From: Synechococcus sp. BIOS-E4-1
GTDB lineage: Bacteria > Cyanobacteriota > Cyanobacteriia > PCC-6307 > Cyanobiaceae
Direction: 5' to 3'
Length of the DNA: 64,000 nucleotides
NCBI RefSeq assembly: GCF_014279995.1
Contig: NZ_CP047935.1
Coordinates: 717,243 to 781,242 of the forward strand
Below, piece after piece: positions 15,661 through 56,351 of the stretch (position 1 is its first letter; every line of letters begins with the position of its first letter). Made by a program: the position numbers and the translations under genes. The notes under the pieces are model-generated. The model was not told where the DNA came from. It searched no databases and was given only the letters and a program-made list of their open reading frames with translations.

Positions 15661-15799
15661 GCTGCCGAGGCGGCTCTGACGAGAGAATGCATCGGATTGG
15701 CTCCAGCGCACGGATGCATTTTCAGGACAGAAAGACAACATTCGATTTTGTCCTTGAGATCCGTTGCAACTACTGGCTTGGGTGATTAGCCTGTCTCAA

Positions 15800-15821
15800 C
15801 TGTTAAACAACTGTTGAACAG
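15800..15821 (+). repeat. Left attachment-site repeat (attL core)
   Basis: A 22-bp sequence (CTGTTAA then ACAACTGTTGAACAG) that recurs with two differences at 55379-55400. It is also nearly its own reverse complement (18 of 22 positions), as expected for a crossover core with two recombinase half-sites. It sits immediately before the integrase start. Confidence 0.7.
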
Positions 15822-15833
15822 GGTTGCACTTAC

Positions 15834-17090
15834 GTGAAAATCCTCGAGAGCATCCGCCTGATGGGCGGGGATTTGCTGATTCAGCGGTTCGATGACCGAC
15901 CTAATTATCAAGCACGTCTGTACGACCGCAAGAACAGGCGTTACATCACGCGTTCTCTGCGCACGACCGACCAGGCAGTAGCGACTGACAGGGCAATAGC
16001 CCTTTGGCGGGAGTCGATGCCCTTGATTGAGGCCAATGTGCCGTTGAAAGCAGGGTCAATCGCCGCCTGCATCGAGGATTACTACGCGTATCAGCAGCGG
16101 AGGGTGGAAGCAGGGGAGATACAGGCAGGCGCACTGCGGGATTCAAGGGCACAGCTCTCTGTTGCTTTGATTTATTGCGGCTTGCAGGAGCTGACCCTGC
16201 TGACTCACGTCCAAGCGCACAGCTTCAACGAGTTTTTGCCCTGGCGTCGGGACAAATCACTGCTGATCACCACTGGTAAGGCAGGGATTATGCGCCGTTC
16301 GTCCCTCAATAAAGGGATCAGGGAGCTGCGGATGTGGTGGAAGTGGGTGAAGGCACAGCGATTGAGCGAGGTCGAGCTTGAAATCAAAGAGCTTTCCACC
16401 AGACGGGAGGAACCACGGCAACGCAACGTGGCATTCACAGATGCCGACTGGAAAAAGCTCCTTGCAGAGCTGAAACGCTGGGCTTTTACCGAAGCGAAAG
16501 GCCCTGACTGGAAGATCAAGAGGATGCGTCCAGTGCATTGGTTCGGAAGAAGGAACTTCTTCTACCTGATGCAGATGCTTGTGCTGTCAGGCCTGCGTCC
16601 ACAGGAAGCAACCCAGATCATCACGTGGAATGACCTGAAATTCCGCAATCAAGGGGCGAATGCTACAGCTAGAGCGCTTGATTCTGCTCTTGTCATCCGC
16701 GTTCGCAACGATCAAGGCAAAGGTTCGCGTTCAGTTGCAACGAATGCAGGGGTATTGCTGAAAGCCTTCAAGAAATACTCGAATGATTGGAGAAAAGAGA
16801 ATGGTTACCCACAGATCAAAGGATCTGACTTGGTATTTGCGTATCCCCCAAGTAATAAGGCGTACTCATACACTCATTACGGGAAAATGTTTCGTGATCG
16901 ACTCCGTCACATTGGATTAGAGGGTAAGGGCTACACAATCCGCTCAACAAGAGCGACATACATCACTGATCGTCTAGCTGAAGGTAAGGCTCCGTACATC
17001 GTCGCCCGTAATTGTGGGCATGACTTGAAAGTCATGATGAGAGACTACGAACAGCTCAATGAAGATCAGTTGATCAACGAATTGTTGTAG
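15834..17090 (+). CDS. int: Tyrosine-type site-specific integrase
   Basis: A 418-residue recombinase. The N-terminal half is a basic arm/core-binding region with an AP2-like start (RFDDRPNYQARLYDRKNRRYITRSL). The catalytic domain has the first Arg in LVLSGLRPQEATQI, a second box YTIRSTRATYITDRL (usual His replaced by Ser), CGHDLKVMMRDYEQL with the late His and the presumed nucleophilic Tyr. All key residues except the box-II His are as expected. The start is a GTG 13 bases after attL. It would catalyse integration and excision of this element. Confidence 0.93.
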   Translation: MKILESIRLMGGDLLIQRFDDRPNYQARLYDRKNRRYITRSLRTTDQAVATDRAIALWRESMPLIEANVPLKAGSIAACIEDYYAYQQRRVEAGEIQAGALRDSRAQLSVALIYCGLQELTLLTHVQAHSFNEFLPWRRDKSLLITTGKAGIMRRSSLNKGIRELRMWWKWVKAQRLSEVELEIKELSTRREEPRQRNVAFTDADWKKLLAELKRWAFTEAKGPDWKIKRMRPVHWFGRRNFFYLMQMLVLSGLRPQEATQIITWNDLKFRNQGANATARALDSALVIRVRNDQGKGSRSVATNAGVLLKAFKKYSNDWRKENGYPQIKGSDLVFAYPPSNKAYSYTHYGKMFRDRLRHIGLEGKGYTIRSTRATYITDRLAEGKAPYIVARNCGHDLKVMMRDYEQLNEDQLINELL

Positions 17091-26004: not shown

Positions 26005-28056
26005 ATGGGTAATCGTAGATTTGCTGGCGCACGTTTAGCCGCTGGTGTTCCTTTAGAAGATATCACTCAAGAGCTTAAGGAGCTTACGGAACAGCTACAA
26101 AAAGAAAACGCTGGCCTAGGGTTTAGTAAAGATGTGCCTGTCCCTGGAATTAATGAGAATGTACATATTTCTGGTAGCTCCGTCTACATGCCTACCATCT
26201 TTGATGAAGATAGGATTATAGGAAACAAAGCAGAGCTGCAGAAAATTCGTGAACTGAATTCTCCTGGTATCGTTGAGCTTGCATGGAGTACTACCGCACA
26301 CCCAGGTGATGACACAGGCACGAAGATGCGCGCTGCTCGTACTGCAGAGCGTGCGTGGTCAGAGCAGCTGAAGGAGCTTCCGACCAACACTATTGTCAGA
26401 AATACTCCTGTCGGTGCGACTAGTGGGGATTTTGAGCGTGCGGATTTGTATTTAAGGAAGGGGTTTGGTCCCCTAATGAGCGATGGTTACCAGTACGGTT
26501 ACGTCAAAGGAGGGAAGATAGAGCCGCTCTCTCCCTTCAAGGCGGATGCAGAACATCTTCGCCACCTTGCTGATAGAGCATATGCATCAGGCGACATGGA
26601 GACAAACGACGTTCTTCGCCGTGAGTTGAATAAACGGCTAGCGGAAAATCTCAATCCAGAATCTGTTGTTCAACCGTATAAAGAGCGACGTCTTACAGCC
26701 GAAGATTATGACTACGACGATGGTGAATATTATGACGAGCCAACCCCTGCTACTAAAGCGGATTTAAGGGCGAGAGTTATTGACTCATACACGGAACCCC
26801 AGGGCGGATATGGAAGTGTTGTGGGGGATGACATTCCGCCCGAGATTGGTATGCGTCGAAATGCGGAGATGGCACGGCGGTATCCGAACAGGGGTGACTA
26901 TCAACCCACTCCAGAGGATTTGGCGTGGTTTAGAGAGCAGCAGATCCGTGCAAGTGCTGTACCTTCGGGGGCAAGAGATCAAATCGATGTGATCAATGAT
27001 TATCGGCCACGTCCTATACCTCCAAGAATTACTGCCGCAGATCTTCAGCGTGACCGCAGTTTCGATGAATTGAACAATTGGAGACTAACTGAATTTGACG
27101 AAATCAATGCGCGCACTCTGGAAGGGAGGCGGGCACAAATGATCGATGCATTGAGAGCAAGCCAGAGTGGAATTAGCGCCACAGGATATGACCATGACCC
27201 GAGCGTCGTACGCGATCGACTTAAGCGTGCAGCTGTTACTCGCACTGCCGATGACGACTTGAACGTAGTGCTTCAAGAGAACTATCTACCAGAAGATGTT
27301 GCGGCTCTCCGTGCTTGGCAAGAATCACAAGCATTGAACTGGCCTATTTCGAATCCGCCGCGCACACCACCGCCGACACTTAACGCTGATGGCACATTTC
27401 AGTCACGACGAGTTGGTCCTGAAAACGCTGTACCAGATAGTGTCGCCATGCTCTCGTCGCTTCCAGGGCGTGACCCGATTCGGCCAAATACTCCATTGAT
27501 AAATAGGCGCGCCCTAACCCCGACTCAAGAAGCTGCTGCAGAAACTCTTGCGGAGATGAGGGCGCGTGGGATCAGCGTGAATACTCGTGAGGGGCTACGT
27601 CTGCGAGCGATCGTCGATGAAGCGAACTACGGTCCTGCAGTTCCATTCCGAAGACTGCAGAGCGCAGAACCACTAACGCCAAGGGAAGCTGCCAGAGCTG
27701 CGAGATCTCTCGACGCCCAGACCAGACAAGAGCTTTTGGAGGATGAGGATCTTCTCCCCGTGGATGAATTGCGAGCGGCTGCTGCTGAACGTCCAAGATG
27801 GGATCCGAGCGCGCCAACGCCGAGGCGAAGACCATCGCGGAGGCCCGTCACTAACACCGATGAAGTTGATTATCTACTCGGTCTAGGGGACGCTCCTATC
27901 ACTACTCGCGTACCACCAGTTCGTGTTGAGGTTGACCCTACTGATGTCTTTGTGAGACCTACGGGTGTAAGGGCAATACAACAAGAAGCACTGAAACGAC
28001 GTGAGATTTCTGCTGATGATGCTGAATTTTTAGAGGCTCTGATTGAGGGTTACTGA
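26005..28056 (+). CDS. Large hydrophilic protein with possible GNAT-like segment, unknown
   Basis: 683 residues, very rich in Arg, Asp, Pro and Glu, with no membrane helix. Residues about 75-190 contain KMRAARTAERAWSEQLKELP ... GDFERADLYLRKGFGPLMSDG, whose last part looks like the C-terminal strand-helix of GNAT acetyltransferases. The remainder is low-complexity with repeated RPRPIPPR and TPRRRPSRRP type segments. The style resembles virion-internal or DNA-associated phage proteins, but no family is recognised. The start has an AAGGA site. Ends overlapping the convergent gene by seven bases. Confidence 0.75.
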   Translation: MGNRRFAGARLAAGVPLEDITQELKELTEQLQKENAGLGFSKDVPVPGINENVHISGSSVYMPTIFDEDRIIGNKAELQKIRELNSPGIVELAWSTTAHPGDDTGTKMRAARTAERAWSEQLKELPTNTIVRNTPVGATSGDFERADLYLRKGFGPLMSDGYQYGYVKGGKIEPLSPFKADAEHLRHLADRAYASGDMETNDVLRRELNKRLAENLNPESVVQPYKERRLTAEDYDYDDGEYYDEPTPATKADLRARVIDSYTEPQGGYGSVVGDDIPPEIGMRRNAEMARRYPNRGDYQPTPEDLAWFREQQIRASAVPSGARDQIDVINDYRPRPIPPRITAADLQRDRSFDELNNWRLTEFDEINARTLEGRRAQMIDALRASQSGISATGYDHDPSVVRDRLKRAAVTRTADDDLNVVLQENYLPEDVAALRAWQESQALNWPISNPPRTPPPTLNADGTFQSRRVGPENAVPDSVAMLSSLPGRDPIRPNTPLINRRALTPTQEAAAETLAEMRARGISVNTREGLRLRAIVDEANYGPAVPFRRLQSAEPLTPREAARAARSLDAQTRQELLEDEDLLPVDELRAAAAERPRWDPSAPTPRRRPSRRPVTNTDEVDYLLGLGDAPITTRVPPVRVEVDPTDVFVRPTGVRAIQQEALKRREISADDAEFLEALIEGY

Positions 28057-28678: not shown

Positions 28679-29377
28679 TTAATAAAGGGATTTGTATTCT
28701 TTGCAGAGTTTGTGAAAGCTTGCTAGGCGTTTTTTCACTTCACCTTTCTCTACTATAAATAGTTGAGCACCTTCTGGCGTGCTGTTGATTATGAGTCCTG
28801 TGTGTATAGGTCTACTCTTTATGCGTTGGTTCCAGGCATGGATGTAAGCGGACACCTGTTGCGCAGCACAGCTATATCTAACCCACTCTGAATATTGATT
28901 GAATTGCTTTGGATTGTAGTTACTACGGATAGGTAAGGTACTGGTTTTAAATTCAAGTAGACAAGGCACACCTCCTACTAAACCTGCCGCATCAGGTATG
29001 CCGATGTACTTGTGTGGCTTGTTCGACCAGACAGCAGACTTATCTCCTGATCGAAGGTGGTTAAGTTCTTCAAGTACAGGACCTTCTGCCCACCACAACT
29101 TCAGGTCAAGTGTCTTGAGTAAATCGTGTACTGGATCGAAGTATTTAAAATAAGCAGGGTCGAGGTCACACTCTCCCGTTTTTAAGTACTGCCTGCAAGC
29201 ATTGTGCACTGCAAGGCCTCGGTTCGTGCTGTTGAGCTGATGCTGTTTCTTCTTGCCTTGATTAGCAAGACAGGCAGACTTCTTTGATTGCTTGTGCTTC
29301 GGGTCTGATTTGATGATTGAAGATACAGAAGGATATGCTTCACCGTCAACGACGAAGCCTTGATATGCGATTGTCAT
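28679..29377 (-). CDS. PD-(D/E)XK nuclease (RecB/Cas4-like exonuclease)
   Basis: 232 residues. An N-terminal SVSSIIK motif, the core GIPDAAGLVGGVPCLLEFKTS supplying the D...ExK metal site, and a later AAQQVSAYIHAWN matching the QxxxY motif of RecB-type nucleases together fit the phage/MGME1-like single-strand exonuclease group. No Fe-S cysteine cluster as in Cas4 is evident. It probably processes DNA ends during replication or recombination of the element. Confidence 0.8.
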   Translation of the reverse strand: MTIAYQGFVVDGEAYPSVSSIIKSDPKHKQSKKSACLANQGKKKQHQLNSTNRGLAVHNACRQYLKTGECDLDPAYFKYFDPVHDLLKTLDLKLWWAEGPVLEELNHLRSGDKSAVWSNKPHKYIGIPDAAGLVGGVPCLLEFKTSTLPIRSNYNPKQFNQYSEWVRYSCAAQQVSAYIHAWNQRIKSRPIHTGLIINSTPEGAQLFIVEKGEVKKRLASFHKLCKEYKSLY

Positions 29378-31469: not shown

Positions 31470-32162
31470 TCAGAACTCGGACGTCGCGCCTGCTTCAGTT
31501 GTGGAGCTGAATTCAGCAGCTGGCTTACGCAGAGGATGCTTGCCTTTTAAGTAGTTGCTCATCTGTGAAGTCTCTGCAACCTCTTGGAAAGCATCAACTT
31601 CAGCCTTGGTTGGCTTGGTCAGCTTGGGCAGGACCGAGTAGCTGGTGTCTAGACCAGTTCCCTTGCGCGTGATCTTCAAGCAGAAGTTGGCAATACCATC
31701 GTCTGTGAAGGTGTAGTCATCGGACTCTCCAATGATTTCGATGATGCCGTCCTTCAACGAACGCTGCTCGATCACAGCAACTTCAACGCGCTTGGTCTCC
31801 TGGCTGTAGACCGTCCAGACCAGAGCACGCTTGGGACGTACGTACTCACCTTCGATCTTGGGTCGCGCGGGATTACTCCAGTCGACTGCACGGGCAGCGT
31901 TAGGAGCAGGATCACCAGGCCACGCCTGGCTGAAGTCATATCCAGAAAACTTGAGCTCGCCTTGAACCGCTTGCTCGACTGGCCATCTGTAAAACAGTGC
32001 GGCATGTCCACTGGAAAAGACTCCTAGAGGACGAAGCAAGACGGATTGACCATCGCTCAAAGATGAAGCAAGAAATTCTTTCGAATCAAATTTGTTGTCT
32101 CCTTTGCTCGTTGAATCAGCAGTTGCTTGGGTCAACTCGGGAGGCAAAACTTGTAGTGTCAT
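31470..32162 (-). CDS. Putative ssDNA-binding protein of phage type
   Basis: 230 residues. The central block DYTFTDDGIANFCLKITRKGTGLDTSYSVLP matches a pattern (FxLxITRxGxGLDTxYxVxP) seen in phage single-strand-binding and related proteins. The N-terminal part has strands typical of an OB-like fold and the C-terminus is acidic-Ser/Thr rich. It sits in the nuclease/VapE-type replication neighbourhood and has its own strong terminator. The assignment is moderate and from motif recall. Confidence 0.55.
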   Translation of the reverse strand: MTLQVLPPELTQATADSTSKGDNKFDSKEFLASSLSDGQSVLLRPLGVFSSGHAALFYRWPVEQAVQGELKFSGYDFSQAWPGDPAPNAARAVDWSNPARPKIEGEYVRPKRALVWTVYSQETKRVEVAVIEQRSLKDGIIEIIGESDDYTFTDDGIANFCLKITRKGTGLDTSYSVLPKLTKPTKAEVDAFQEVAETSQMSNYLKGKHPLRKPAAEFSSTTEAGATSEF

Positions 32163-33763: not shown

Positions 33764-35035
33764 TCAGAAGTCCGAGCTAGCTGACTGCTTCGGATCCTCT
33801 GGGTTCAGCCAGAGCCTGACGGATTTTCGCTTGCCATCGATGGTCCTCTTCGTCTGCTTGTACTCCCATCCCAGAGACCTCATTACTCTTCCGACCCTGC
33901 GCTGATGGCCGTTATTCACGCGGTCAAGGGGAATGTTGATTGCGTATTGAAGGATGTTGGAAGTGGTCGTGTCCTTCTTGTCGCTGATGTAGCTACTGAT
34001 CGACTCGTACCAGGAGTCCCTTTCCAAGAAGTCATCCTGATATGTAGCGAGCTCTGCCAGTTGGCCAGACGTGTACTCCCATGGCTCATGCTCTCGGTAA
34101 AGCTTGACGGCAGCAGCCCATAAGCTGCCTCGCTCATCCTTCAACTTCCGCCAAGGAACGACGTGATCGTTGGGTAAACGAATCGGTACGAAGCGTCTGT
34201 TGCCTGTGCTGTCGACTAGAAGCTGTGGCTCATTGCTCGTGCCCAAGAAGATGAACCCCCGCTTGGCTTTGGTTGGCAGCTCATAGGGACGTCTGATCTC
34301 ATCGACCTGGAGTGTGATCAGGTTCTTCAGTACCTCCGCGTTCTGCGGCTTGAAGAATTGATCAATCTCTGGGAGCTCAAGGATCCAGCCTGTGTGAAGG
34401 CGATAGGCCTCCTTGATTAAGGTGTGGAGGTCGGAGTTCATCTCCGAAAACATCTCTGTAGGTACAAGGCTCTTTGCCCACTGACTCTTGCCTCGTCCCT
34501 GTGCACCGATAAGGATCGGCAGCCAGGACATCGAGCAGCCTGGGTTGTATGCCCTAGCTACAGCGCCGATCATCATCCGCTTCATTGCCAGGTTGGCGAT
34601 CTCTGATTCGTTGCCGAAGTAGTCAGTAGCTATTGAGTTGATCCCCTCTGATGGCTCATGCTCTTCAACGCACCGTTCAAGGAATTGAGTGCGGGGGTCA
34701 TAGGAGTTTTCGTTTGCCAGGAACTGAACTGCAGATTTAAGCCGCCCGTCTGGTAGAGAAGCGCCGAACCTTACGGCCAGATCAGAGCCCAGCCAGGTGA
34801 AACGGTCGCCTTCGAGTGCAGCAGTGCGTCCATTGGTATCGGCAAACTCAATCTGATTTGTCATCAAATTCTTCCTGAAGTTGACGTCAGTACTTCTGAT
34901 CTTTTCAATATCAGCAATTTTTTCTTGAGCAACTACGTCAGCTGTCTTGAGAGGACGGCCTGGTCCTGCTGTAGTAACACCGCCCTGCAACAACTTCAAA
35001 GGTTCAGGAGCAGGTTGAAAGGTAAAGTTTGTCAT
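33764..35035 (-). CDS. VapE/VirE-type P-loop ATPase (replicative helicase-like)
   Basis: 423 residues. Walker A is GAQGRGKSQW after LPILI, Walker B-like WILELPEIDQF, then FIFLGTSNEPQLLVDSTGNRRFVPIRL, the sensor region typical of the virulence-associated E family (PF05272). These SF3-like ATPases replace or assist replicative helicases in phages, satellites and plasmids, usually beside a primase. The C-terminus is a basic winged-helix-like part. Good confidence in family; the helicase role is by analogy. Confidence 0.88.
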   Translation of the reverse strand: MTNFTFQPAPEPLKLLQGGVTTAGPGRPLKTADVVAQEKIADIEKIRSTDVNFRKNLMTNQIEFADTNGRTAALEGDRFTWLGSDLAVRFGASLPDGRLKSAVQFLANENSYDPRTQFLERCVEEHEPSEGINSIATDYFGNESEIANLAMKRMMIGAVARAYNPGCSMSWLPILIGAQGRGKSQWAKSLVPTEMFSEMNSDLHTLIKEAYRLHTGWILELPEIDQFFKPQNAEVLKNLITLQVDEIRRPYELPTKAKRGFIFLGTSNEPQLLVDSTGNRRFVPIRLPNDHVVPWRKLKDERGSLWAAAVKLYREHEPWEYTSGQLAELATYQDDFLERDSWYESISSYISDKKDTTTSNILQYAINIPLDRVNNGHQRRVGRVMRSLGWEYKQTKRTIDGKRKSVRLWLNPEDPKQSASSDF

Positions 35036-36394: not shown

Positions 36395-38290
36395 TCACTG
36401 ACGAAGATCTCGAACGTAAGTCAAGTAATAAGTGCGTTCACCTTTTGGTTTAAGTCGAGTAATGCATCCTTGTCGTTCAAGCTGCACGACTGCACTGGTG
36501 ATGTCCTCTCGAGAGAACCCTTTGACACCTTTCAGTTTCGTCTTGAGGACACTCTCTTTGATTGGTGTGTGCTCTCGGATTTTGCGCAGTACATAGTCAA
36601 GGCGTTTGAGTGTTGCCTCACGTACTAGCTCGGCTTCCCGAATAGAAGGAGCAGCTCTACAGATGTCAGCAATGTGTTGGTACTGACTACAGGCAAGAGC
36701 TTCAAGGTTGAGAGCACGTTGAACGGTTTCCTTGGAGATAGGGATTGAGGTCACAGCATGCACAGCGTCAGAGCACGGTGTACGGATTTGATTGCCTTGA
36801 CCATCTTTCGCTGACGTGAAGCGTTTGCCTACCAGCGTTTCGAGGACGTGGAGCAGTACAGCGAACTTGATCACGCGCACACCTGTCTTCCTCAAGAAGG
36901 AACGAAGGCCTGCCTCTTTACTCTCGGCTTCCATGTCAGAAGCCATCTCCATACGGTCTCTAACGCTGTCGTTGTAAAGCGTTTGAGCTCCGTCATACCG
37001 ATCTAGGTGAAGCACTTGATAGTCGATGACATTGCCAAGCACATCTGTTTGAGTTGCAGCCATTCGATCTATATCAAGGCACCACGGGATCAAGCGAGTG
37101 GAGATGTACTCCTGAATCGGATCGATAGATGCGTCACCTGGGTCAGTGGTGTTCAGTCCAAAAGAACCTTCCTTTGCCTTTGACTCGACTACAAGAGTGC
37201 GGCTCGTCCAGCCCATTGAATCCTCTGCAAAGTCAAGGATCTCTGTGATGAAACGGAGCTGGAGGTTGGCAGTCAGGGTGACGGACTGTGCACGGAACTC
37301 GATGTTGTTGTCGCTGTTAGCCCGAGTGAAAGTATTGGTTAGCTCTTTGGTGTAGGCCTCAACAAGCATCTTGATGAAGAGTCCCATGCTCTGAACGCCA
37401 GCACCGCTATTGCCGTTGTTCCCGTAGCGGTTGCAAGCCAAAAGGTCAGAGCCTTCGTCCTGATGCAGGTGAAAGCCAGAGCGAGCTTTTTGTTTTGAGA
37501 GCTCACGAGCAAAGCCTTCAGCAGAGAACGACAGCGATTCAGAGATGTAGTCCTTGAGGTTGTCCTGAAGACGTCTGACTTCTGCCTTTTGTTGGGCTGG
37601 GTCATCAAGCCGCTTGGCTTCTTCAAGCGCGCTCTTACGCAGCGTGTTCATCATGCGGCGCAGTTGACGTAGTGGAGTGATGAACTTGTTTGAGGTGACA
37701 CTCTTGAACGAGCTTGTGTCTCCGCAGCAGAAGACATACAGGTTGGGCGGGATCGGGTCGGAGCCGTTCACTCCTGAATGGCCCATGATCTTGCTTCCGA
37801 GCAAGGTCCCTGTCGTTGCAAGCAGCAGGAAGACAGAGGACTTCCAGTCAGTACCGCTGCGGTCACAGGAGTCTTGAATGATGGATGCGACAGCTGGTGG
37901 TAGAAGGTCTTCAATATTGAAGTCAGCTTCAAACTTCGGAGCCAAGCTGCCAAGTGCATCGGCGTACTGCTGCGTCTTGTCGAGAATTTCAGAAGCCTTG
38001 GCGACGCTCTGCCTGATCTCGTAGGTAGACATGTCCCAGAGTTCAGCAACGAACTTGACTGCTACAGGCTCAACACTTGGGTAAGTACCCAGCAGCTTTG
38101 CAAGAGCATCGATGGTATTGCTATTTGTTTGAGACTTAACTCTTCCCCCTTTCTTACTAGCCGTGGAGACATAATCCTGAAAGGCGAAATAAGCTTCACT
38201 TTCTCCTTCACGCAAATTGTGATTGGATGGATTAGGATTAGTGGACAGCAGAATACTATTTGCGTTCTTTGATGGTTCTTGAATCGTCAT
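36395..38290 (-). CDS. DUF3987 P-loop ATPase/primase-helicase-like protein
   Basis: 631 residues from the ATG at 38290, which has a perfect GAGGAG six bases upstream; the frame is open further but overlaps the small gene before it. The central domain has PPNLYVFCCGDTSSFKSVTSNKF (Walker A-like GDTSSFKS) and GFHLHQDEGSDLL (Walker B-like), typical of DUF3987 helicase-like proteins of phages and mobile islands. The C-terminus (HTPIKESVLKTKLKGVKGFSREDITSAVVQLERQGCI) is a winged helix. Likely works in replication with the VapE-like ATPase. Confidence 0.85.
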   Translation of the reverse strand: MTIQEPSKNANSILLSTNPNPSNHNLREGESEAYFAFQDYVSTASKKGGRVKSQTNSNTIDALAKLLGTYPSVEPVAVKFVAELWDMSTYEIRQSVAKASEILDKTQQYADALGSLAPKFEADFNIEDLLPPAVASIIQDSCDRSGTDWKSSVFLLLATTGTLLGSKIMGHSGVNGSDPIPPNLYVFCCGDTSSFKSVTSNKFITPLRQLRRMMNTLRKSALEEAKRLDDPAQQKAEVRRLQDNLKDYISESLSFSAEGFARELSKQKARSGFHLHQDEGSDLLACNRYGNNGNSGAGVQSMGLFIKMLVEAYTKELTNTFTRANSDNNIEFRAQSVTLTANLQLRFITEILDFAEDSMGWTSRTLVVESKAKEGSFGLNTTDPGDASIDPIQEYISTRLIPWCLDIDRMAATQTDVLGNVIDYQVLHLDRYDGAQTLYNDSVRDRMEMASDMEAESKEAGLRSFLRKTGVRVIKFAVLLHVLETLVGKRFTSAKDGQGNQIRTPCSDAVHAVTSIPISKETVQRALNLEALACSQYQHIADICRAAPSIREAELVREATLKRLDYVLRKIREHTPIKESVLKTKLKGVKGFSREDITSAVVQLERQGCITRLKPKGERTYYLTYVRDLRQ

Positions 38291-38300
38291 GTTCATCTCC

Positions 38301-38456
38301 TCAACTCCTTCCTTGTTGCTGCTTGATCCATTGCTCAACAAGAGAGCGGAGTACGGAGGATTTGTTGAGGTTGCCCTCATCGATTAGCTGGTTGAATTTA
38401 TGTTTAAGCTCAAGTGTCATCCTGACATTTTCTTGAGCGACTAATTTACTAGTCAT
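38301..38456 (-). CDS. 51-residue ribbon-helix-helix protein (short gene)
   Basis: ATG at 38456 (MTSKLVAQENVRMTLELKHK...) to TGA at 38301, ten bases before the DUF3987 start. The pattern ENVRMTLELKHKFNQLIDEG then NKSSVLRSLVEQWI is a strand followed by two helices as in CopG/Arc repressors. It is the first gene of the operon and probably autoregulates it, reading the 38457-38596 intergenic region shared with the divergent gene. Confidence 0.7.
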   Translation of the reverse strand: MTSKLVAQENVRMTLELKHKFNQLIDEGNLNKSSVLRSLVEQWIKQQQGRS

Positions 38457-40941: not shown

Positions 40942-42090
40942 ATGGATCCCAAGGACATTCGAGTCACGGTCTCGACCAATACTTGTTGCACGAACAAGAC
41001 CCGACATCAAGGAGAGCACGAGCAATGGCAAAACGTTGCTCTGCCTCTTGGTGATCTCATCAATGAGTTTGTTCGTAAGGGCTATGCGTTCTGTCCATCG
41101 CTGTTCAGAGGTGGCTATCGCTCTGGTGCCAACGCTTTCGGAGGTGACACCGTTGTTATTGACGAGGATGAAGGCATCGATCCTGCTGTGATTGCCGAAC
41201 TGCCTGTCTTTAAGGCATTCGGTATTGCGATCTGGCCCAGTGCCAGCAGCAGTGTCACTGCAGAGAAGAAGGGAGTTGATGGACAGGTCAGATCTCGTGT
41301 CTTGTTCCGTGTTGGCAGAAGTTTCAACACAGGTAAGCCCACGACTGCAATCGCATTGGAGAGGACAGCTGTCCACGTCGAGCGCATCGCAGTCAGTGAA
41401 TACATCTATGACCGCTTCTGCAGAGAGCTCGGCATTGAAGGACTGCAGGACGACTGCGGTAAGACTGTTGGCCAGCTGATGTATGGCAACGACGGTAAGA
41501 CTCCCGTCGAGTTCCAACGAGATGACGGAACAAAGAGCACGTATCCCTGCTCAACCGACAGCTGGCTCTACTTGAACGATGGCTGCATGCCTGTAGATCT
41601 GATGGATCAGCTGATTGCTGACTTCCGTGAACAACAGGGAGAACGTCTCAAACCAAAGGCACGACGTACCGAGGAAGAGAACGAGCAGGACTATCAGCTT
41701 GCACTCTGGATTCTGGAGAACGACGTCTTGTCAGAGGAGGTACTGACTGACCGTAAGTCATGGACCAAGGTTGGCATGGCTTGTCGAGGCATCAGTGATG
41801 ACCTCAAGGAGCCATGGCTTGCAACCTGTTCACGGTTTGACGACGGTCACTACTGGAGAGCCTGGTCCTATATGGAGCAGAACTGGGAACGCTTCAGTGA
41901 GACTTCTGCCATAGGGATTGGAACGCTAATCCACTACGCCAACGAAAGCGATAAACAGTGGCGTTATCTCTGCCCCTTCATGGGAAAGACACAGAAACAG
42001 TTCATCAGTCCTTGCTTCCAGCTCCTGCGTTCACATAAGCCAGGTACTCCAGGCTTCTTCAATTTTTCACTTACTGGCTACGAATCATGA
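40942..42090 (+). CDS. Primase-like protein with PriCT-2-type C-terminus
   Basis: 382 residues. The C-terminal part (ALWILENDVLSEEVLTDRKSWTKVGMACRGI ... YWRAWSYMEQ) matches the Primase C-terminal 2 pattern. The N-terminal half would then be the archaeo-eukaryotic primase domain, with acidic candidates in GDTVVIDEDEGID and ALERTAVHVERIAVSE. Starts 14 bases after the SSB-like gene and overlaps the next by ATGA. Likely primes replication of the element together with the DUF3987 and VapE-like ATPases. Confidence 0.7.
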   Translation: MDPKDIRVTVSTNTCCTNKTRHQGEHEQWQNVALPLGDLINEFVRKGYAFCPSLFRGGYRSGANAFGGDTVVIDEDEGIDPAVIAELPVFKAFGIAIWPSASSSVTAEKKGVDGQVRSRVLFRVGRSFNTGKPTTAIALERTAVHVERIAVSEYIYDRFCRELGIEGLQDDCGKTVGQLMYGNDGKTPVEFQRDDGTKSTYPCSTDSWLYLNDGCMPVDLMDQLIADFREQQGERLKPKARRTEEENEQDYQLALWILENDVLSEEVLTDRKSWTKVGMACRGISDDLKEPWLATCSRFDDGHYWRAWSYMEQNWERFSETSAIGIGTLIHYANESDKQWRYLCPFMGKTQKQFISPCFQLLRSHKPGTPGFFNFSLTGYES

Positions 42091-42272
42091 GTACGACACC
42101 TAAACGAAATAATCAAATCACTGTCAGGTTTACTGACTTTGAGGAAGGCTTTCTCACTTGGTATGCAATGCACATCGATTGCGATAGAGCCAACAGTATT
42201 AGGCATGTCTTGAGTTCCTTCCTGGCAGACCATGATCAACTGGTAGCTCGTTATCTTGAGGAGAAGAAGTGA
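42087..42272 (+). CDS. Small ribbon-helix-helix-like protein
   Basis: 61 residues. NNQITVRFTDFEEGFLTWYAMHID then RANSIRHVLSSFL gives a strand and two helices as in CopG-type repressors. Translationally coupled by ATGA to the primase-like gene. Probable regulator or copy-number control; inference. Confidence 0.6.
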   Translation: MSTTPKRNNQITVRFTDFEEGFLTWYAMHIDCDRANSIRHVLSSFLADHDQLVARYLEEKK

Positions 42273-42415: not shown

Positions 42416-42482
42416 TAGATGGTTGTCAGACAAAGACACTAGAAGATATCAATGCTATAACCGTTAAAGACTCCTGAAACCT

Positions 42483-42740
42483 ATGTCAGAAGAACAACTC
42501 AAAGCCTTCCTGGAGAAGGTCAAAGCAGACACCAGCCTTCAGGAGAAACTCAAAGCTGCTGCTGATTCAGACGCAGTTCTTGCGATTGCAAAAGAGGCTG
42601 GCTTTAGCATCTCTGCTGATGACTTGAAGAACGCTCAATCAAAGGTTTCAGAAGAAGAGCTTGAAAATGCATCTGGGGGGAAGGTCACTGGTGTCTCGAC
42701 TGGACAGAGGTGCACTGTGTTAATATGCTGGTGTGTGTAG
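42483..42740 (+). CDS. Nif11/ProcA-type lanthipeptide precursor 1
   Basis: 85 residues. The leader (MSEEQLKAFLEKVKADTSLQ ... AKEAGFSISADDL ... SEEELENASGG) is the Nif11-like leader of prochlorosin-type precursors and ends in a double-Gly. The 19-residue core that follows has three Cys and four Ser/Thr (VSTGQRCTVLICWCV at the end), the residues joined as lanthionine rings by a LanM enzyme. No LanM lies in this window. The class is firm by pattern; modification is inferred from the family. Confidence 0.9.
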   Translation: MSEEQLKAFLEKVKADTSLQEKLKAAADSDAVLAIAKEAGFSISADDLKNAQSKVSEEELENASGGKVTGVSTGQRCTVLICWCV

Positions 42741-42837
42741 GGGGGTCACTGGCTGTGCCACTGACATATGTTACCCATCACTGTGTTGCTAGAAGATCAG
42801 GACTGCCGTTAGAGATTGACCACAGCCAATACACTCA

Positions 42838-42864
42838 AACCCCCTGCATTGACAGGGTTTTTTT
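42838..42864 (+). terminator. Terminator of precursor 1
   Basis: ACCCCCTGCATTGACAGGGT followed by seven T. The same CCCCTGCATTGACAGGG core ends all three precursor modules. Confidence 0.85.
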
Positions 42865-42892
42865 ATTTCTTCAATCTCGCCAGTAATCCCAC

Positions 42893-43154
42893 AAATCAGC
42901 CTTCAATACCTGGCACCATTATCCATAAAACAGTCAAAGCTTTCACACGCCCAGCCGCCTAATCAATCCACAAAAAATACAAGACACAGCAAATAAAGCC
43001 TCAGCTTTCTTTAGTCCTATATCTATTCATATCCACTCAACGCAACTGCCAAAACCTTCGCTCCCTATCACCATCACGGATGCCATTTGCCCGTCTAAAT
43101 CTCACCGCAACTTGATACCACTCCTCTGGGATTTGATTGAGCCGAACATCAAAA
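42893..43154. repeat. Duplicated segment, copy 1 (about 262 bp)
   Basis: Matches 43951-44211 along its length with scattered substitutions (for example AAATCAGCCTTCAATACCTG at the start and CTCCTCTGGGATTTGATTGA near the end). On the minus strand it contains the last part of the chimeric glycosylase frame (residues NQIPEEW to FWQLR). Confidence 0.85.
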
Positions 43155-43561
43155 GCAAAAGGGAGTTGCTGTTGCCCTGGTGAGACCCGTTTCTTCTTGC
43201 TTCTACTGCTCCCAACCAATCGCTTCAGCATCCTTGAGCCCCAATGGCACTTAGCCCCTCCCTTGGCGTGATGGCGATACTTCTGGCAGAACCGCCCAGG
43301 CTCACCAAACAGCGTCTCGTTTTGCGGCGAACGCCTGCGGTAGCCGTGGCAGGCAGGTTCGTCCTGTGAATACGCCTCCGTTTCCACAATCACGCCCCAC
43401 AACACCCCTCCATCGCTCTGGCGTTTCACCAGCCGACAGCCCACCAAGTCAGGTCCCACCACCTCTGCAGGGCGGCAGAAGAAGGATTGAGGTAGAGCTG
43501 GGAAATCGTTGGCGATGTGCTGGGTGGCTATGGGCGTGGCTGGAGCGACAACCTTCTTCAC
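43037..43561 (-). pseudogene. Chimeric remnant of alkyladenine (3-methyladenine) DNA glycosylase
   Basis: 174 residues from a GTG. Residues about 25-90 are a good AAG/MPG N-terminus: [41 protein letters not shown] with the catalytic Glu, and [10 protein letters not shown]. After that the family sequence stops and is replaced by a basic unrelated tail ending in the duplicated segment ([12 protein letters not shown]). The C-terminal half of the glycosylase fold is missing, so it is probably inactive. The fusion marks a recombination joint. Confidence 0.7.
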
Positions 43562-43620
43562 TGAAGTCTGACAATGCAGCCTGCAGAAGAGACAATTGAA
43601 TTATCTACATTCTTTCCCTT

Positions 43621-43863
43621 ATGTCAGAAGAACAACTCAAGGCATTCCTCGAAAAAGTCAAAGGCGACTCCAGTCTTCAGGAAAAGCTCAAAGCAGCCGC
43701 TGATGTTGACGCAGCTCTTGCAATTGCGAAAGAGGCTGGGTTTAGTATTTCTGCTGATGACGTTCGGACGTCAATTTCAGATGAGGAACTTGAAGGCGCG
43801 GCTGGGGGTGGTTACGACTGCACTAGGGAAGACTGGTCCTGCAACCCCGACTGCATTCGATAG
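43621..43863 (+). CDS. Nif11/ProcA-type lanthipeptide precursor 2
   Basis: 80 residues with a leader almost identical to precursor 1 (MSEEQLKAFLEKVKGDSSLQ ... DEELEGAAGG). The core after the double-Gly is 17 residues (GYDCTREDWSCNPDCIR) with three Cys, one Thr and one Ser, unrelated to the core of precursor 1. Conserved leader plus hypervariable core is the hallmark of prochlorosin families. Confidence 0.9.
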   Translation: MSEEQLKAFLEKVKGDSSLQEKLKAAADVDAALAIAKEAGFSISADDVRTSISDEELEGAAGGGYDCTREDWSCNPDCIR

Positions 43864-43895
43864 ACGTTCGCAAGCCCAGACTTACACACCCACGA

Positions 43896-43922
43896 AAGCC
43901 CCTGCATTGACAGGGGTTTTTT
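43896..43922 (+). terminator. Terminator of precursor 2
   Basis: AGCCCCTGCATTGACAGGGG followed by TTTTTT, same core as in the other two modules. Confidence 0.85.
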
Positions 43923-43950
43923 ATTGCTTCAATGGTCTGACTGACCCCAT

Positions 43951-44211
43951 AAATCAGCCTTCAATACCTGGCACCATTATCCATAAAACAGTCACTAGTT
44001 TCACCCATCCAACCGCCTAATCCATCCACAAAAAATACAAGGCACAGCGAATAAAGCCTCCGCATTCTTTAACCTTACATCTACTTATATCTCCTCAACG
44101 CAACTGCCAAAACCTTCGCTCCCTATCACCATCACGGATGCCATTCGCCCGTCTAAATCTCACCGCAACCTGATGCCACTCCTCTGGGATTTGATTGAGC
44201 CGCACATCAAA
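43951..44211. repeat. Duplicated segment, copy 2
   Basis: Second copy of 42893-43154, about 1.06 kb downstream. It runs directly into the leader codons of precursor 3 instead of the rest of the glycosylase fusion, so the joint between them is a deletion or recombination scar near 44212-44222. Confidence 0.85.
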
Positions 44212-44222
44212 TACAAACGGCA

Positions 44223-44456
44223 CTCAAAGCCTTCTTGGAGAAGGTCAAAGCAGACACCAGCCTTCAGGAGAAGCTGAAAGCTGCAGCTAATACTGATGCA
44301 GTTCTTGCGATTGCGAAAGAGGCTGGGTTTAAGATTTCTGCTGAAGACTTGAAGAACGCTCAAGTCACAGAGCTTTCAGATGAGGAATTGGAGGGCGCAG
44401 CTGGAGGGAGGTGTGCTTGCAAAGACTTTTACTCTGTGCCAACTGTTGAGGGTTAG
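44223..44456 (+). pseudogene. Nif11/ProcA-type precursor 3, start codon lost
   Basis: The leader reads LKAFLEKVKADTSLQEKL ... DEELEGAAGG in frame, but the first five codons (MSEEQ in the others) are replaced by the duplicated segment. Only a TTG at 44235 could start translation, without a clear ribosome site. The core is RCACKDFYSVPTVEG with two Cys. Probably silent or poorly expressed; a reservoir for recombination is conceivable. Confidence 0.75.
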
Positions 44457-44488: not shown

Positions 44489-44515
44489 AAAGCCCCTGCA
44501 TTGACAGGGCTTTTG
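44489..44515 (+). terminator. Terminator of precursor 3
   Basis: AAGCCCCTGCATTGACAGGGCTTTT; same core as the other two modules. Confidence 0.75.
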
Positions 44516-44650
44516 CTTCAATGCTACGAGAGTCTCTTGACAAAAAGGGTAATGGTTAAAATGAATATAGTCTTGGTTATCTCTTCTCAAACCGTCAAGA
44601 TAGATCTAATTCCAAGACACATTATTTGTTGCTGATTGTTAGGATTAAAA

Positions 44651-49251: not shown

Positions 49252-49428
49252 ATGATTAGTGGTTTGAACAAAGAAAGCACGCTGAACGTGCGTGTTCCAG
49301 GCGATTACAAGGATCAGATCGCCGAGGTTGCCAAGCAAGCAGGCATCTCTCCCTCTGAATTTGTGAGACGCAGCCTGCGTCATTCATTGGAGATGGTTGA
49401 GCTGACACAGAGAGGACAGAGGCAATGA
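49252..49428 (+). CDS. Ribbon-helix-helix repressor, first gene of right operon
   Basis: 58 residues from the ATG at 49252. KESTLNVRVPGDYKDQIAEVAKQAG then SPSEFVRRSLRHSLEM is a clean Arc/CopG strand-helix-helix. Overlaps the next gene by ATGA. Likely autoregulates this operon and the divergent gene at 48359-49159 through the AT-rich gap between them. Confidence 0.8.
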   Translation: MISGLNKESTLNVRVPGDYKDQIAEVAKQAGISPSEFVRRSLRHSLEMVELTQRGQRQ

Positions 49429-51554
49429 CGTCCAGTTACAACAGCAATCCATATTCCGATCCTGTTTTCCTTGAGCGTGCACGCAATCCAGCTAACCCAG
49501 AGTTCTGGCGAGCATTAGGTGACGGACTTAAGGGAGGCATGGATGTGGCTCCTGAAGAGCGCCATGGAATGTTGAGGCACATTCGAGATGTGCAGGGCAT
49601 GGACGAGGCACCGCGTATTCACTACGTCCTTGGCAATAATCCTTTGGTGGATCTGGCCAAGCAAGTCAAGGCAGTCAACCCTGAAGGAAGGATTGCTCGG
49701 ATGCTTCCTGGCATCAGTCCCTATGACGATGAGGAGCTGATCCGCCGTGGGAATGCTGGCTTCCTCCTCGGGCCTCAACTCACCCGAGGTGAACAGATCA
49801 AGCCTGATGCTTCACCTGAAGTAGTCGAAGCCTTCAAGGAAAAGCTGCGGAGAATTCCTACTGTCTCCAAGGCAGGGTATGCACTGGGCAACCTTGCACA
49901 GGACTTCACGAACAACGCATCAAGGAACATTTGGTGGCTGATCAACGCACCCCAGGCAGTGGTCGACCTGGCTAGTGAAAGTGTTGCTTCTCAACTGAAC
50001 CCTTCCCTATTCGGTGCCGAACGTCTCACCTCTGGAGCTGATGGAATTACTGAAGCCGAGAAGCTTGGTCTGATTCGTTTCAGTCCGAAGGGAGGTACAG
50101 CAGAAGAGCAGTGGGATAGGGCCAAGAAAGTTGTCGATGGGATTCAACCTTCACCCGTTCCTCCTGGCGGCACTGCTGCTGGTTACGGTCAGCTTGATCC
50201 TCTTGTCTTCACCCCTGAACAGCAAGCGCTCTATGAGGATGCACAGGACAAGCTGAAGAACTACAAGGACCTGCTCGATAACGAGAGGAAGGAAAGGAAC
50301 AAGGCAGAGAACTATGTAGCCAGTGCGCCTGGGGTCAGGAAGGTTGAACGGGAGGGAGGCAAGACCTTCTTCAAGCGTCGTCGGTTTAATCCGAACCTCG
50401 TCAGCCTTGCTGCTCTACTACCTGCCGCAACAGCAGTTAACGCAGGCATTGGCCTACTGGATAGGCAAGACGGTTACGCCGCAACCGTTCCGAGTGATGA
50501 GGATCCCAGGCAAACCAGCAATGCCATTGCCGAGGTTGCCTCTCGATATTTCCTCGGACGTGAGGGCAACCTCTTACCTGCTGATGACGTTCTGCTTGAA
50601 AGACCTGACGTCACACGGGCTGAATACAACCAGTACAAGGGCTATCTCCGTGACAGAGAGATCGATCTGAATCCGTTTGATGACGGCAAGATCAATCTCG
50701 GTGGCGTGCTCAAGACCAACCCTGATGGGATACGAGGTGTTGAAGTTCAGTTCCTCGGGAAGTCATTGCCAGTGAACGACACGCTGATGCCTGTTGCTGG
50801 TGCTCTGCTTGGTACAGCAGCTGGAGCTGCACTCTCAAATGTTGGGTCGCTTCGTTTTCGTCGAGGACGTTTGAATGATCCAAACAAAAAGATCGCAGAG
50901 GCTTATCGCCAGAAGATAAGCAAAGGCAACCGTGTTGAGAAGGCGCTTGGAAAAGCAGCTGGTTTTATTCCTGAATCGATACCGCGTAAGGACCAGGGTG
51001 TAGGCGAACGAAACTTCAATCCAGCATTCAAGGAAGGCACGCCACTCGGTGACAGTGTCCGTGGAGTCCAGAGGTTCTTCGATGCACCTGATGCACAGAA
51101 CTCATGGACGAATAATGTTCGTACCTTGTCTGCCCTTGCAGCTGGCGGAACCGTCGGAGCTCTTGCTGCTGGAGCCATCGCTGGAGCACTAGAGGACGAG
51201 CGCAGGCGTCGGAACTTTGCCGAACAGTACGGCGAGGACTTGGATTACGACCAGTACAAATCAAACGCAGCGGCTCTTCTTGACACCAAGATCCGCATGG
51301 GTCGAGAGAATCCAAACGCTGCACAGGAACGTGAGCAATCTGCGGTCGGGTTCTCAAGGCGTAACCAGCAGGCAGCTCTCATGGATTACGCCCTTGAGCA
51401 GCAATCTTTGATTGATCAGATGGCCCCTGGTCCTGACAGGGAAAGAGCTAGCGATTTACTGGGCAAGCAGATGTGGGCACTATCAAAGGCCAGCTCTATT
51501 GATGAAGAGATCGGAGCCCGAAGGAAGCAAAAAGATGAGGAGCAGTTGTTATGA
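49425..51554 (+). CDS. Large protein with glycine-zipper membrane segments, unknown
   Basis: 709 residues. The N-terminal 300 are soluble (MTSSYNSNPYSDPVFLERAR; NNASRNIWWLINAPQAVVDL). Hydrophobic Gly/Ala-rich segments occur at about 327-345 (LVSLAALLPAATAVNAGIGLL), 455-475 (LMPVAGALLGTAAGAALSNV) and 568-590 (LAAGGTVGALAAGAIAGAL). The C-terminus is charged and helical. Such segments occur in phage membrane-penetrating and internal-virion proteins and in channel-forming proteins. No family recognised; candidate DNA-delivery or membrane-acting protein. Confidence 0.75.
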   Translation: MTSSYNSNPYSDPVFLERARNPANPEFWRALGDGLKGGMDVAPEERHGMLRHIRDVQGMDEAPRIHYVLGNNPLVDLAKQVKAVNPEGRIARMLPGISPYDDEELIRRGNAGFLLGPQLTRGEQIKPDASPEVVEAFKEKLRRIPTVSKAGYALGNLAQDFTNNASRNIWWLINAPQAVVDLASESVASQLNPSLFGAERLTSGADGITEAEKLGLIRFSPKGGTAEEQWDRAKKVVDGIQPSPVPPGGTAAGYGQLDPLVFTPEQQALYEDAQDKLKNYKDLLDNERKERNKAENYVASAPGVRKVEREGGKTFFKRRRFNPNLVSLAALLPAATAVNAGIGLLDRQDGYAATVPSDEDPRQTSNAIAEVASRYFLGREGNLLPADDVLLERPDVTRAEYNQYKGYLRDREIDLNPFDDGKINLGGVLKTNPDGIRGVEVQFLGKSLPVNDTLMPVAGALLGTAAGAALSNVGSLRFRRGRLNDPNKKIAEAYRQKISKGNRVEKALGKAAGFIPESIPRKDQGVGERNFNPAFKEGTPLGDSVRGVQRFFDAPDAQNSWTNNVRTLSALAAGGTVGALAAGAIAGALEDERRRRNFAEQYGEDLDYDQYKSNAAALLDTKIRMGRENPNAAQEREQSAVGFSRRNQQAALMDYALEQQSLIDQMAPGPDRERASDLLGKQMWALSKASSIDEEIGARRKQKDEEQLL

Positions 51555-55378: not shown

Positions 55379-55400
55379 CTGTTAAGCAACTGTTAAACAG
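55379..55400 (+). repeat. Right attachment-site repeat (attR core)
   Basis: Begins CTGTTAAGCAACTGTT and ends AAACAG; matches 15800-15821 except at two positions. It lies 45 bases upstream of the glyQ start. A further half-site-like GTTGTTCAACAG lies about 47 bases inside (near 55321), a possible arm site. Confidence 0.7.
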
Positions 55401-55445: not shown

Positions 55446-56351
55446 ATGCACTTCCAGGACATCATCAGCACTCTCAACCGTTTCTGGTCGGAGCAGGGTT
55501 GTCTGCTGCTGCAGCCCTACGACACGGAAAAGGGCGCAGGAACGATGAGTCCGCACACCGTGCTGCGAGCGATCGGGCCGGAGCCTTGGGCGGTGGCTTA
55601 CCCCGAACCCTGTCGCCGCCCCACCGATGGTCGCTACGGCGACAATCCCAATCGGGCACAGCATTATTTCCAGTATCAGGTGCTGATCAAGCCTTCACCG
55701 GATGGCATTCAGGAGACCTATCTCTCCTCGTTGGAAGCACTTGGCATCAAGCCTGCCGAGCACGACATCCGCTTCGTGGAAGACAACTGGGAGTCACCGA
55801 CACTGGGTGCCTGGGGCGTGGGCTGGGAGGTGTGGCTTGATGGCATGGAGGTGACCCAGTTCACCTATTTCCAGCAGTGCGGCGGCATCGACTGCAAGCC
55901 GGTGTCGATTGAAATCACCTACGGGCTTGAGCGTTTGGCGATGTACCTGCAGGACGTAGAAAGTATCTGGGATCTGAGCTGGAATGGCGAGCGCAGTTAC
56001 GGCGATATCTGGCTTCCCTTTGAGAAAGGACAGTGCCATTTCAACTTCGAGGTCTCCAACCCTGAGCGCCTCAAGCAGTTGTTCGCCATCTATGAAGCGG
56101 AAGCAGCCGATCTAATTGACAACAATCTGCCTGCTCCGGCCCTGGATTTTGTGCTCAAGTGCAGCCACACCTTCAATCTGCTGGAAGCCCGTGGGGTGAT
56201 TTCGGTGACCGAGCGCACGGCCACCATCGGCCGCATCCGCAACCTGGCCCGCAAAGTTGCAGAAGCCTGGCTCGCCGAGCGTGAAGCGCTGGGATTCCCC
56301 TTGCTCCAACAGCAGTCCGCCCCTGCAACCGCCACCGCCACCGCTGTCTGA
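55446..56351 (+). CDS. glyQ: Glycyl-tRNA synthetase alpha subunit
   Basis: 301 residues. Starts [20 protein letters not shown], with the class II core ([60 protein letters not shown]) that activates glycine. The beta subunit (glyS) is not in the window. The integrated element ends 45 bases upstream, so its promoter context may have been altered by the insertion. Confidence 0.97.

Follow-up and report, generated by a model that had tools for sequence, protein, structure and literature searches.

The stretch of DNA analysed here, 64,000 nucleotides of the Synechococcus sp. BIOS-E4-1 genome (contig NZ_CP047935.1, positions 717,243 to 781,242 of the forward strand; hereafter the window), carries three lanthipeptide precursor modules with Nif11-type (prochlorosin-type) leaders at positions 42483–44456, all on the forward strand. 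The first gene, procA 1 (42483..42740), encodes 85 amino acids ending in the core KVTGVSTGQRCTVLICWCV (Pfam Nif11, E 1.7e-19; TIGR03798, E 6.1e-27), procA 2 (43621..43863) encodes 80 amino acids with the core GYDCTREDWSCNPDCIR (Nif11, E 1.5e-19), and procA 3 (44222..44456) consists of a leader minus its first 14 nt followed by the core RCACKDFYSVPTVEG (Nif11, E 1.2e-12). All three exceed the cut-offs of TIGR03798 (NCBIfam leader_Nif11) and PF07862. A GG site terminates each leader. The cores show no relation to one another; their Cys counts are 3, 3 and 2 and their Ser/Thr counts 4, 2 and 2, respectively, and in core 3, both Cys lie N-terminal of every Ser/Thr. The terminator-like hairpin CCCTGCATTGACAGGG is found 3′ of each gene, at 42842..42864, 43894..43921 and 44494..44516 (all +), with a weak T run in the last. 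This is the arrangement that an earlier, sequence-only reading of the window had described, and its Nif11 leaders with GG sites, unrelated cores (3, 3 and 2 Cys) and common terminator hairpin are all borne out; the leaders, which it called near-identical, share 81–84% pairwise identity.

Precursor genes 1 and 2 each have a complete leader with a start codon, a GG site, a core with Cys and Ser/Thr, and a terminator, and both look intact as judged from their DNA. In procA 3, leader homology begins at 44222, with 14 nt (about 5 codons) gone and no ATG; a candidate start, at 44235, is an internal TTG, and the DNA immediately 5′ is the 3′ end of a transposase gene. Because its start codon is missing, procA 3 is classed as a truncated copy and is probably silent; the proposal that all three modules are precursors stands for the two complete genes and fails for the third. 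Upstream of procA 1 lies a promoter-like element, TGCTATAAC (42453..42461, +), holding the 6-mer TGCTAT, which is the most frequent 6-mer in the 75 nt upstream of procA open reading frames (ORFs) in this genome (78 of 124). The upstream region of procA 2 is not of the TGCTATAAC type and resembles that of a chromosomal procA next to AAG (see below), and procA 3 has neither type. The sequence GYDCTREDWSCNPDC of core 2 recurs with a different leader in the database protein P0121 (91% identity overall), known from contigs of at most 1112 bases; this second leader would be consistent with movement and is no record of it. Among the ORFs compared, cores 1 and 3 have no close match, and the leaders closest to those of precursors 2 and 3 belong to other procA of the genome (90.5% and 92.1%, respectively).

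The precursor cassette lies inside an integrated element of 39.7 kb (15714–55461), which occupies the 5′ end of glyQ (55446..56351, +; PF02091, E 2.3e-142). The glyQ loci of 24 relatives of the same genus (glyQ identity 92–96%) were aligned to the window. In 11 of them the site is empty: alignment of the left flank continues as far as 15729, that of the right flank picks up again at the glyQ start codon (55446), and the two overlap by 16 bp. The remaining 13 have different upstream DNA or an incomplete left match. The element ends in a 16-bp imperfect direct repeat, whose left copy, ATGCATTTTCAGGACA, forms the attachment site attL (15714..15729, +) and whose right copy, ATGCACTTCCAGGACA, forms attR (55446..55461, +) and is the first 16 nt of glyQ; the copies agree at 14 of 16 positions, and both differences are synonymous in glyQ. 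A tyrosine recombinase (integrase) of 418 amino acids (15834..17090, +; phrog_1, E 3.5e-15) is encoded from 105 bp inward of the left end. Integrase, imperfect direct repeats and empty sites in relatives together characterize a tyrosine-recombinase element, in line with the integrated carrier that had been suggested, and none of the 11 empty-site relatives has precursors at the site that might predate the insertion. Repeats of the type CAACTGTTAAACA lie near both ends (15797–15820 and 55379–55400) and are possible integrase arm sites. Integration at the start-codon region implies that the element would provide the new upstream region of glyQ. SXT/R391-type elements, which we take to integrate in the 5′ end of prfC, presumably likewise target a protein gene at its 5′ end.

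No LanM synthetase is encoded in the 39.7 kb, as had been stated. A search of the genome, which is a single contig of 3.31 Mb, found two genes for class II LanM, one at 496.5 kb and the other at 2203 kb (approximately 0.26 and 1.44 Mb from the element, respectively), and more than 100 precursors beyond the three of the window. Both LanM match TIGR03897 (723 and 708 bits, cut-off 304; E 4e-217 and 2e-212) and contain CHG and CCG motifs, the latter of which we take to mark the ProcM group. A C39-peptidase peptide exporter and an HlyD-like partner are encoded at 961.7–965.3 kb, their best matches being NHLP export models, both below cut-off. LanM was found in 12 of 31 genomes of the genus, and leader-region matches, among the matches listed, come from 11 LanM-bearing genomes and two without LanM (G013 and G008). 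In G013, a genome without a LanM match, a decayed procA is present at the AAG locus (contig C1, approximately 453.6 kb).

The predicted precursors ride several different integrated elements, without the enzyme in the cases examined: Nif11 ORFs lie on two further bounded elements and on one probable element. The two bounded elements are element A in the same genome and a GST-gene element in the genome G012. Element A measures 18.1 kb and is delimited by an exact 49-bp repeat (at 934190 and 952337) that falls within the 3′ part of a tRNA-Ala (GGC) gene; the element encodes an integrase, a helicase-primase-like protein, a terminase large subunit (phrog_2, E 1.2e-20) and six ORFs above the Nif11 cut-off. 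Region B, also in this genome (approximately 2.500–2.515 Mb), contains an integrase, a terminase (phrog_2, E 1.1e-6) and one Nif11 ORF; no direct repeats of 12 bp or more were found around it in the stretches tried, and its ends are thus approximate. The Nif11 ORF of B sits between the terminase and a gene pair common to A (83% and 70%, tblastx), and since procA occupies this position in both, it looks like inherited cargo. The genome has three phrog_2 matches, two adjoining procA and a third, weak one (E 4e-4, 2043 kb) not near procA; a terminase query against viral contigs found no relative. The junction of module 3, between transposase remnant and truncated procA, recurs at 947212–947664 of the genome (87% over 458 bp, window 43951–44408), where the twin ORF has an in-frame TTG start and the window copy has none before the junction. 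Across the genome, a sequence pattern applied to selected stretches yielded at least 124 Nif11-leader ORFs in 31 clusters, 117 with a GG-type site and 112 with Cys in the core, and scoring of 150 of 263 procA candidates gave 150 matches. Both counts exceed the 83 and 79 precursors of the two richest strains in the available text of PMC10783134.

The structure of the cassette points to its source. Between modules 1 and 2, an ORF on the reverse strand (43037–43561) fuses the 5′ end of AAG, encoding a methylpurine-DNA glycosylase, to the 3′ end of a Y1 transposase gene. The AAG portion (AAG′; 43290..43561, −; PF02245, E 2.2e-16) meets the transposase portion (tnp′; 42837..43298, −), which comprises the 3′ end of a REP-type gene and downstream DNA, at 43290–43298; in other genomes, AAG sequences match from 43288–43290 onward and transposase sequences up to 43298. 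A second tnp′ copy (43895..44220, −) is 87% identical to 42837–43162. A simple form of the locus is present on contig C22 of G012, which belongs to another species, as an intact transposase gene (Y1_Tnp), a procA, an intact AAG and a carbamoyltransferase gene; tnp′ is 87.8% identical to the 3′ end and downstream DNA of that transposase gene (L177, 6660–7445). In BIOS-E4-1 itself, a procA at 439.4–439.6 kb adjoins an intact AAG ending at 440.3 kb, and this locus is 94% identical over 419 bp to 42824–43242 and 88% identical over 182 bp to leader 1. These two loci indicate that the cassette derives from a chromosomal transposase–procA–AAG locus. Relatives lacking the element also have such a locus; the cassette did not originate on the element. 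Recent copying from the host's AAG was considered as the origin of AAG′; neither the identities (88.3% to the own AAG, 91.1% to that of G115, from another genus) nor the tree tests (element and own sequence as one clade, approximately unbiased (AU) test p 0.064; element and G115, support 63/88) single out a donor. The AAG tree used 44 of 51 distinct sequences (200 nt or longer), leaving out 7 shorter ones. Complete Y1_Tnp genes, above cut-off, stand beside procA both on C22 of G012 and in G115, and the G115 transposase scores 61.7 bits against REP_Tyr_transpos, under the cut-off of 80.

A 191-bp probe spanning the AAG′/tnp′ junction was compared with 300 genomes of the family, the two best candidates being scored per genome. 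Among the matches listed, the probe aligns at full length in the window and on contig C7 of G012 (90%), and over positions 40–191 in G115 (82%). On C7, the chimera sits between two procA on an 8.5-kb element with an integrase; the element has an exact 37-bp repeat within 57 bp, at the 5′ end of a GST gene, and its site is empty in G008. The single LanM of G012 is on another contig. Like the glyQ element, the GST-gene element occupies the 5′ end of a gene. In G115, procA and transposase genes cluster around the junction; at 905–915 kb of that genome, procA alternate with complete and partial REP-type transposase genes just past a tRNA-Met gene. A single origin of the three cassettes from their shared junction was dropped, as neither the AAG′ nor the tnp′ tree joins them, and the claim is that the junction recurs; one AAG′ clade is not rejected (AU p 0.082 for the three cassettes and 0.119 for the two on elements). 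Since the cassettes are not united in one clade, the junction may have had several origins, through recurrent formation at a short stretch of shared sequence; the other possible history is a single origin overlaid by later gene conversion. The tnp′ of the G012 cassette groups with a G012 chromosomal copy (83/93, not starred).

The rest of the element includes genes of replication type: an exonuclease (28679..29377, −; phrog_298, E 5.3e-14), a single-strand DNA-binding (SSB) protein-like product (31470..32162, −; phrog_1607, E 3.1e-6), a VapE-family helicase (33764..35035, −; PF05272, E 6.4e-52), a DUF3987 helicase-like protein (36395..38380, −; PF13148, E 8.4e-13) and a primase-like PriCT_2 protein (40942..42090, +; PF08707, E 2.4e-7). 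No structural phage family was matched among the 20 of 43 element ORFs scanned against PHROGs, and 14 of the 20 matched nothing. Two element proteins, of 683 (26005–28056) and 709 amino acids (49425–51554), have no PHROG match and no Pfam match above cut-off. Related integrases are encoded upstream of glyQ in G021 (30% identity, residues 3–411) and G012 (35%, residues 287–409), and the gene order hisF–ubiE/menG–integrase–glyQ is common to these genomes and the window (flanking genes named by eye in the other two); with these integrases at the same place, the glyQ 5′ end seems to have served as an integration site more than once. An integrase query against a collection of genome contigs found no relative. 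A related element was found in Synechococcus sp. AG-679-D13 (QCUM01000017.1), where 12 of 43 tested ORFs matched, mostly collinearly, in a comparison covering 21.3 of 43.0 kb. That element has no procA between its homologue of 42087–42272 and the flanking 5-formyltetrahydrofolate cyclo-ligase gene, the position of the cassette in the window, and the cassette therefore looks like added cargo.

VapE relatives are encoded in 486 IMG/VR stretches when an alignment serves as the query, 80 of which (43–47% identity) were kept; a single-protein VapE query against IMG/VR found no relative. Of 89 VapE loci (the 80 viral loci and those of the AG-679-D13 search), 56 have a match to the primase of the element, 59 to its exonuclease and 47 to its SSB, and none has a precursor match at E 1e-6. 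The replication genes of the backbone appear to be shared with viruses, and the precursors do not appear as a viral trait.

Several known systems resemble parts of this arrangement. Prochlorosins and synechococsins (ProcA/SyncA, ProcM/SyncM), as presented in the available text of PMC10783134, likewise combine a Nif11 leader, a GG site and a variable Cys-containing core with a promiscuous, trans-acting LanM and scattered precursors; the window precursors differ in lying on an att-bounded element without the enzyme, in a genome with two LanM. The same text mentions recombinases, integrases and transposases near prochlorosin clusters, suggests horizontal transfer, and cites a preprint (Laurenceau et al.) on the association of lanthipeptide genes with TnpAREP. 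With such genes the window shares procA beside REP-type Y1 transposase DNA, whereas its transposase is a 3′ remnant and its carrier a tyrosine-recombinase element. Tycheposons, in the portion of PMC10872708 available, also have a tyrosine recombinase, cargo and a size range (4–200 kb) that includes this element; unlike them, it sits in the 5′ end of glyQ and not in a tRNA gene, although element A does use tRNA-Ala. The accessible part of PMC10187409 describes a group of picocyanobacterial integrases located near tRNA-Phe or tRNA-Cys. A likeness to phage satellites is tentative: integrase and replication genes are in common, the 20 ORFs scanned gave no structural match although 14 of them matched nothing at all, and element A adds a terminase. 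A literature search that covered few subscription papers and bioRxiv entries found, among the papers listed, no report of procA as cargo of a bounded element.

Taken together, these results make it probable that a 39.7-kb integrative element carries the three genes as cargo and that elements of this kind can bring substrates to LanM-owning hosts. The tyrosine recombinase would insert the element into the 5′ end of glyQ, and precursors 1 and 2 would be transcribed from their own upstream regions. A resident LanM of the CCG type would recognise the Nif11 leaders, dehydrate Ser/Thr and close thioether rings in the core, after which a resident C39-peptidase exporter would cleave at the GG site and export the product. 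The cassette itself would have come from a chromosomal transposase–procA–AAG locus, rearranged there or on the element, as suggested by the AAG/transposase chimera and the junction between transposase and truncated procA; junctions of the same kind on other integrated elements suggest that procA modules pass between chromosome and elements. Transfer between strains, followed by modification by a resident LanM, would complete this route. Of the idea that the precursor rides and the enzyme stays, the core is upheld and fits the other elements; set against it are the chromosomal origin of the cassette and the damage to one gene. The earlier observation is in this sense partly confirmed, and its interpretation partly supported.

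Several results weigh against cargo status and transfer. Precursor 3 is damaged, and the three cassettes with the same junction are not joined in the AAG′ or tnp′ trees. A near-identical integrase was found, among the 31 genus genomes, only in that of the window. No match to precursor 1 was found in INPHARED (50,697 phage records), and precursor 2 has one remote match in IMG/VR, in a search reaching close relatives only. The proximity of integrases to procA favours the cargo reading at 15 kb, a distance within which 10 of 13 own-genome integrase matches, some of them weak or stop-containing, have a procA (3.7 expected; 1 of 2000 rotations as high). At 5 kb the signal is weak, with 4 such matches where 1.7 are expected (189 of 2000 rotations as high), and at 30 kb it is moderate, with 11 where 5.8 are expected (14 of 2000). 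Integrases and procA may both merely favour islands.

The transposase remnants raise the possibility that REP-type Y1 transposases move procA and that the element is one landing place, its own mobility being irrelevant to their spread. Each tnp′ copy next to the precursors represents a transposase 3′ end, procA has intact transposase genes as neighbours in G012 and G115, and an association with TnpAREP is the subject of the title of the preprint cited in the available text of PMC10783134. The genome, however, has one Y1_Tnp match against more than 100 procA, the transposase in the window is a remnant only, and the identical position of procA in A and B looks like inheritance as cargo, so that we regard this account as rather unlikely. 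A similarly tentative standing belongs to the view that the cassette is a by-product of recombination or gene conversion among the more than 100 dispersed procA and tnp′ repeats, captured by chance with no gain to the element. It would explain why leaders 2 and 3 are closest to other own-genome procA and why the G012 cassette groups by tnp′ with a chromosomal copy; it sits less easily with the full leader, GG site, core and terminator of precursors 1 and 2, and with Nif11 ORFs on two bounded elements and a probable one.

That the precursor genes are dead leftovers would suit the lost start of precursor 3 and the decayed procA of the LanM-less G013, but precursors 1 and 2 are complete and precursor 1 retains the common procA upstream element, which makes such decay improbable for the cassette. 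The peptides could also work to the element's own benefit, for instance against rival cells or elements, in the manner of prophage morons. The same type of cargo on different elements, and its shared position after the terminase in A and B, would agree with such a role; prochlorosin function is described as unknown in the available text of PMC10783134, and we consider the proposal highly doubtful.

On the cargo reading, the known picture is widened by precursors of this kind on several different integrated elements, without the enzyme in the cases examined. Gene-cluster mining anchored on the synthetase would miss orphan precursors of ribosomally synthesized and post-translationally modified peptides on mobile elements, which suggests a wider look. 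A broader model, to which we give even chances, is a split pathway in which the enzyme is resident on the chromosome and the substrate library is a shared mobile pool on diverse elements, some of them satellite-like with a terminase, with modules swapped among elements and chromosomal loci and new cores delivered to any LanM host. Elements with att sites, empty sites and shared recombinant junctions offer a concrete, testable vehicle of precursor arrival, and with it an approach to the question of how a single promiscuous LanM acquired dozens of unrelated substrates in one strain. If this is true, precursors can arrive without the enzyme because a LanM is already resident.

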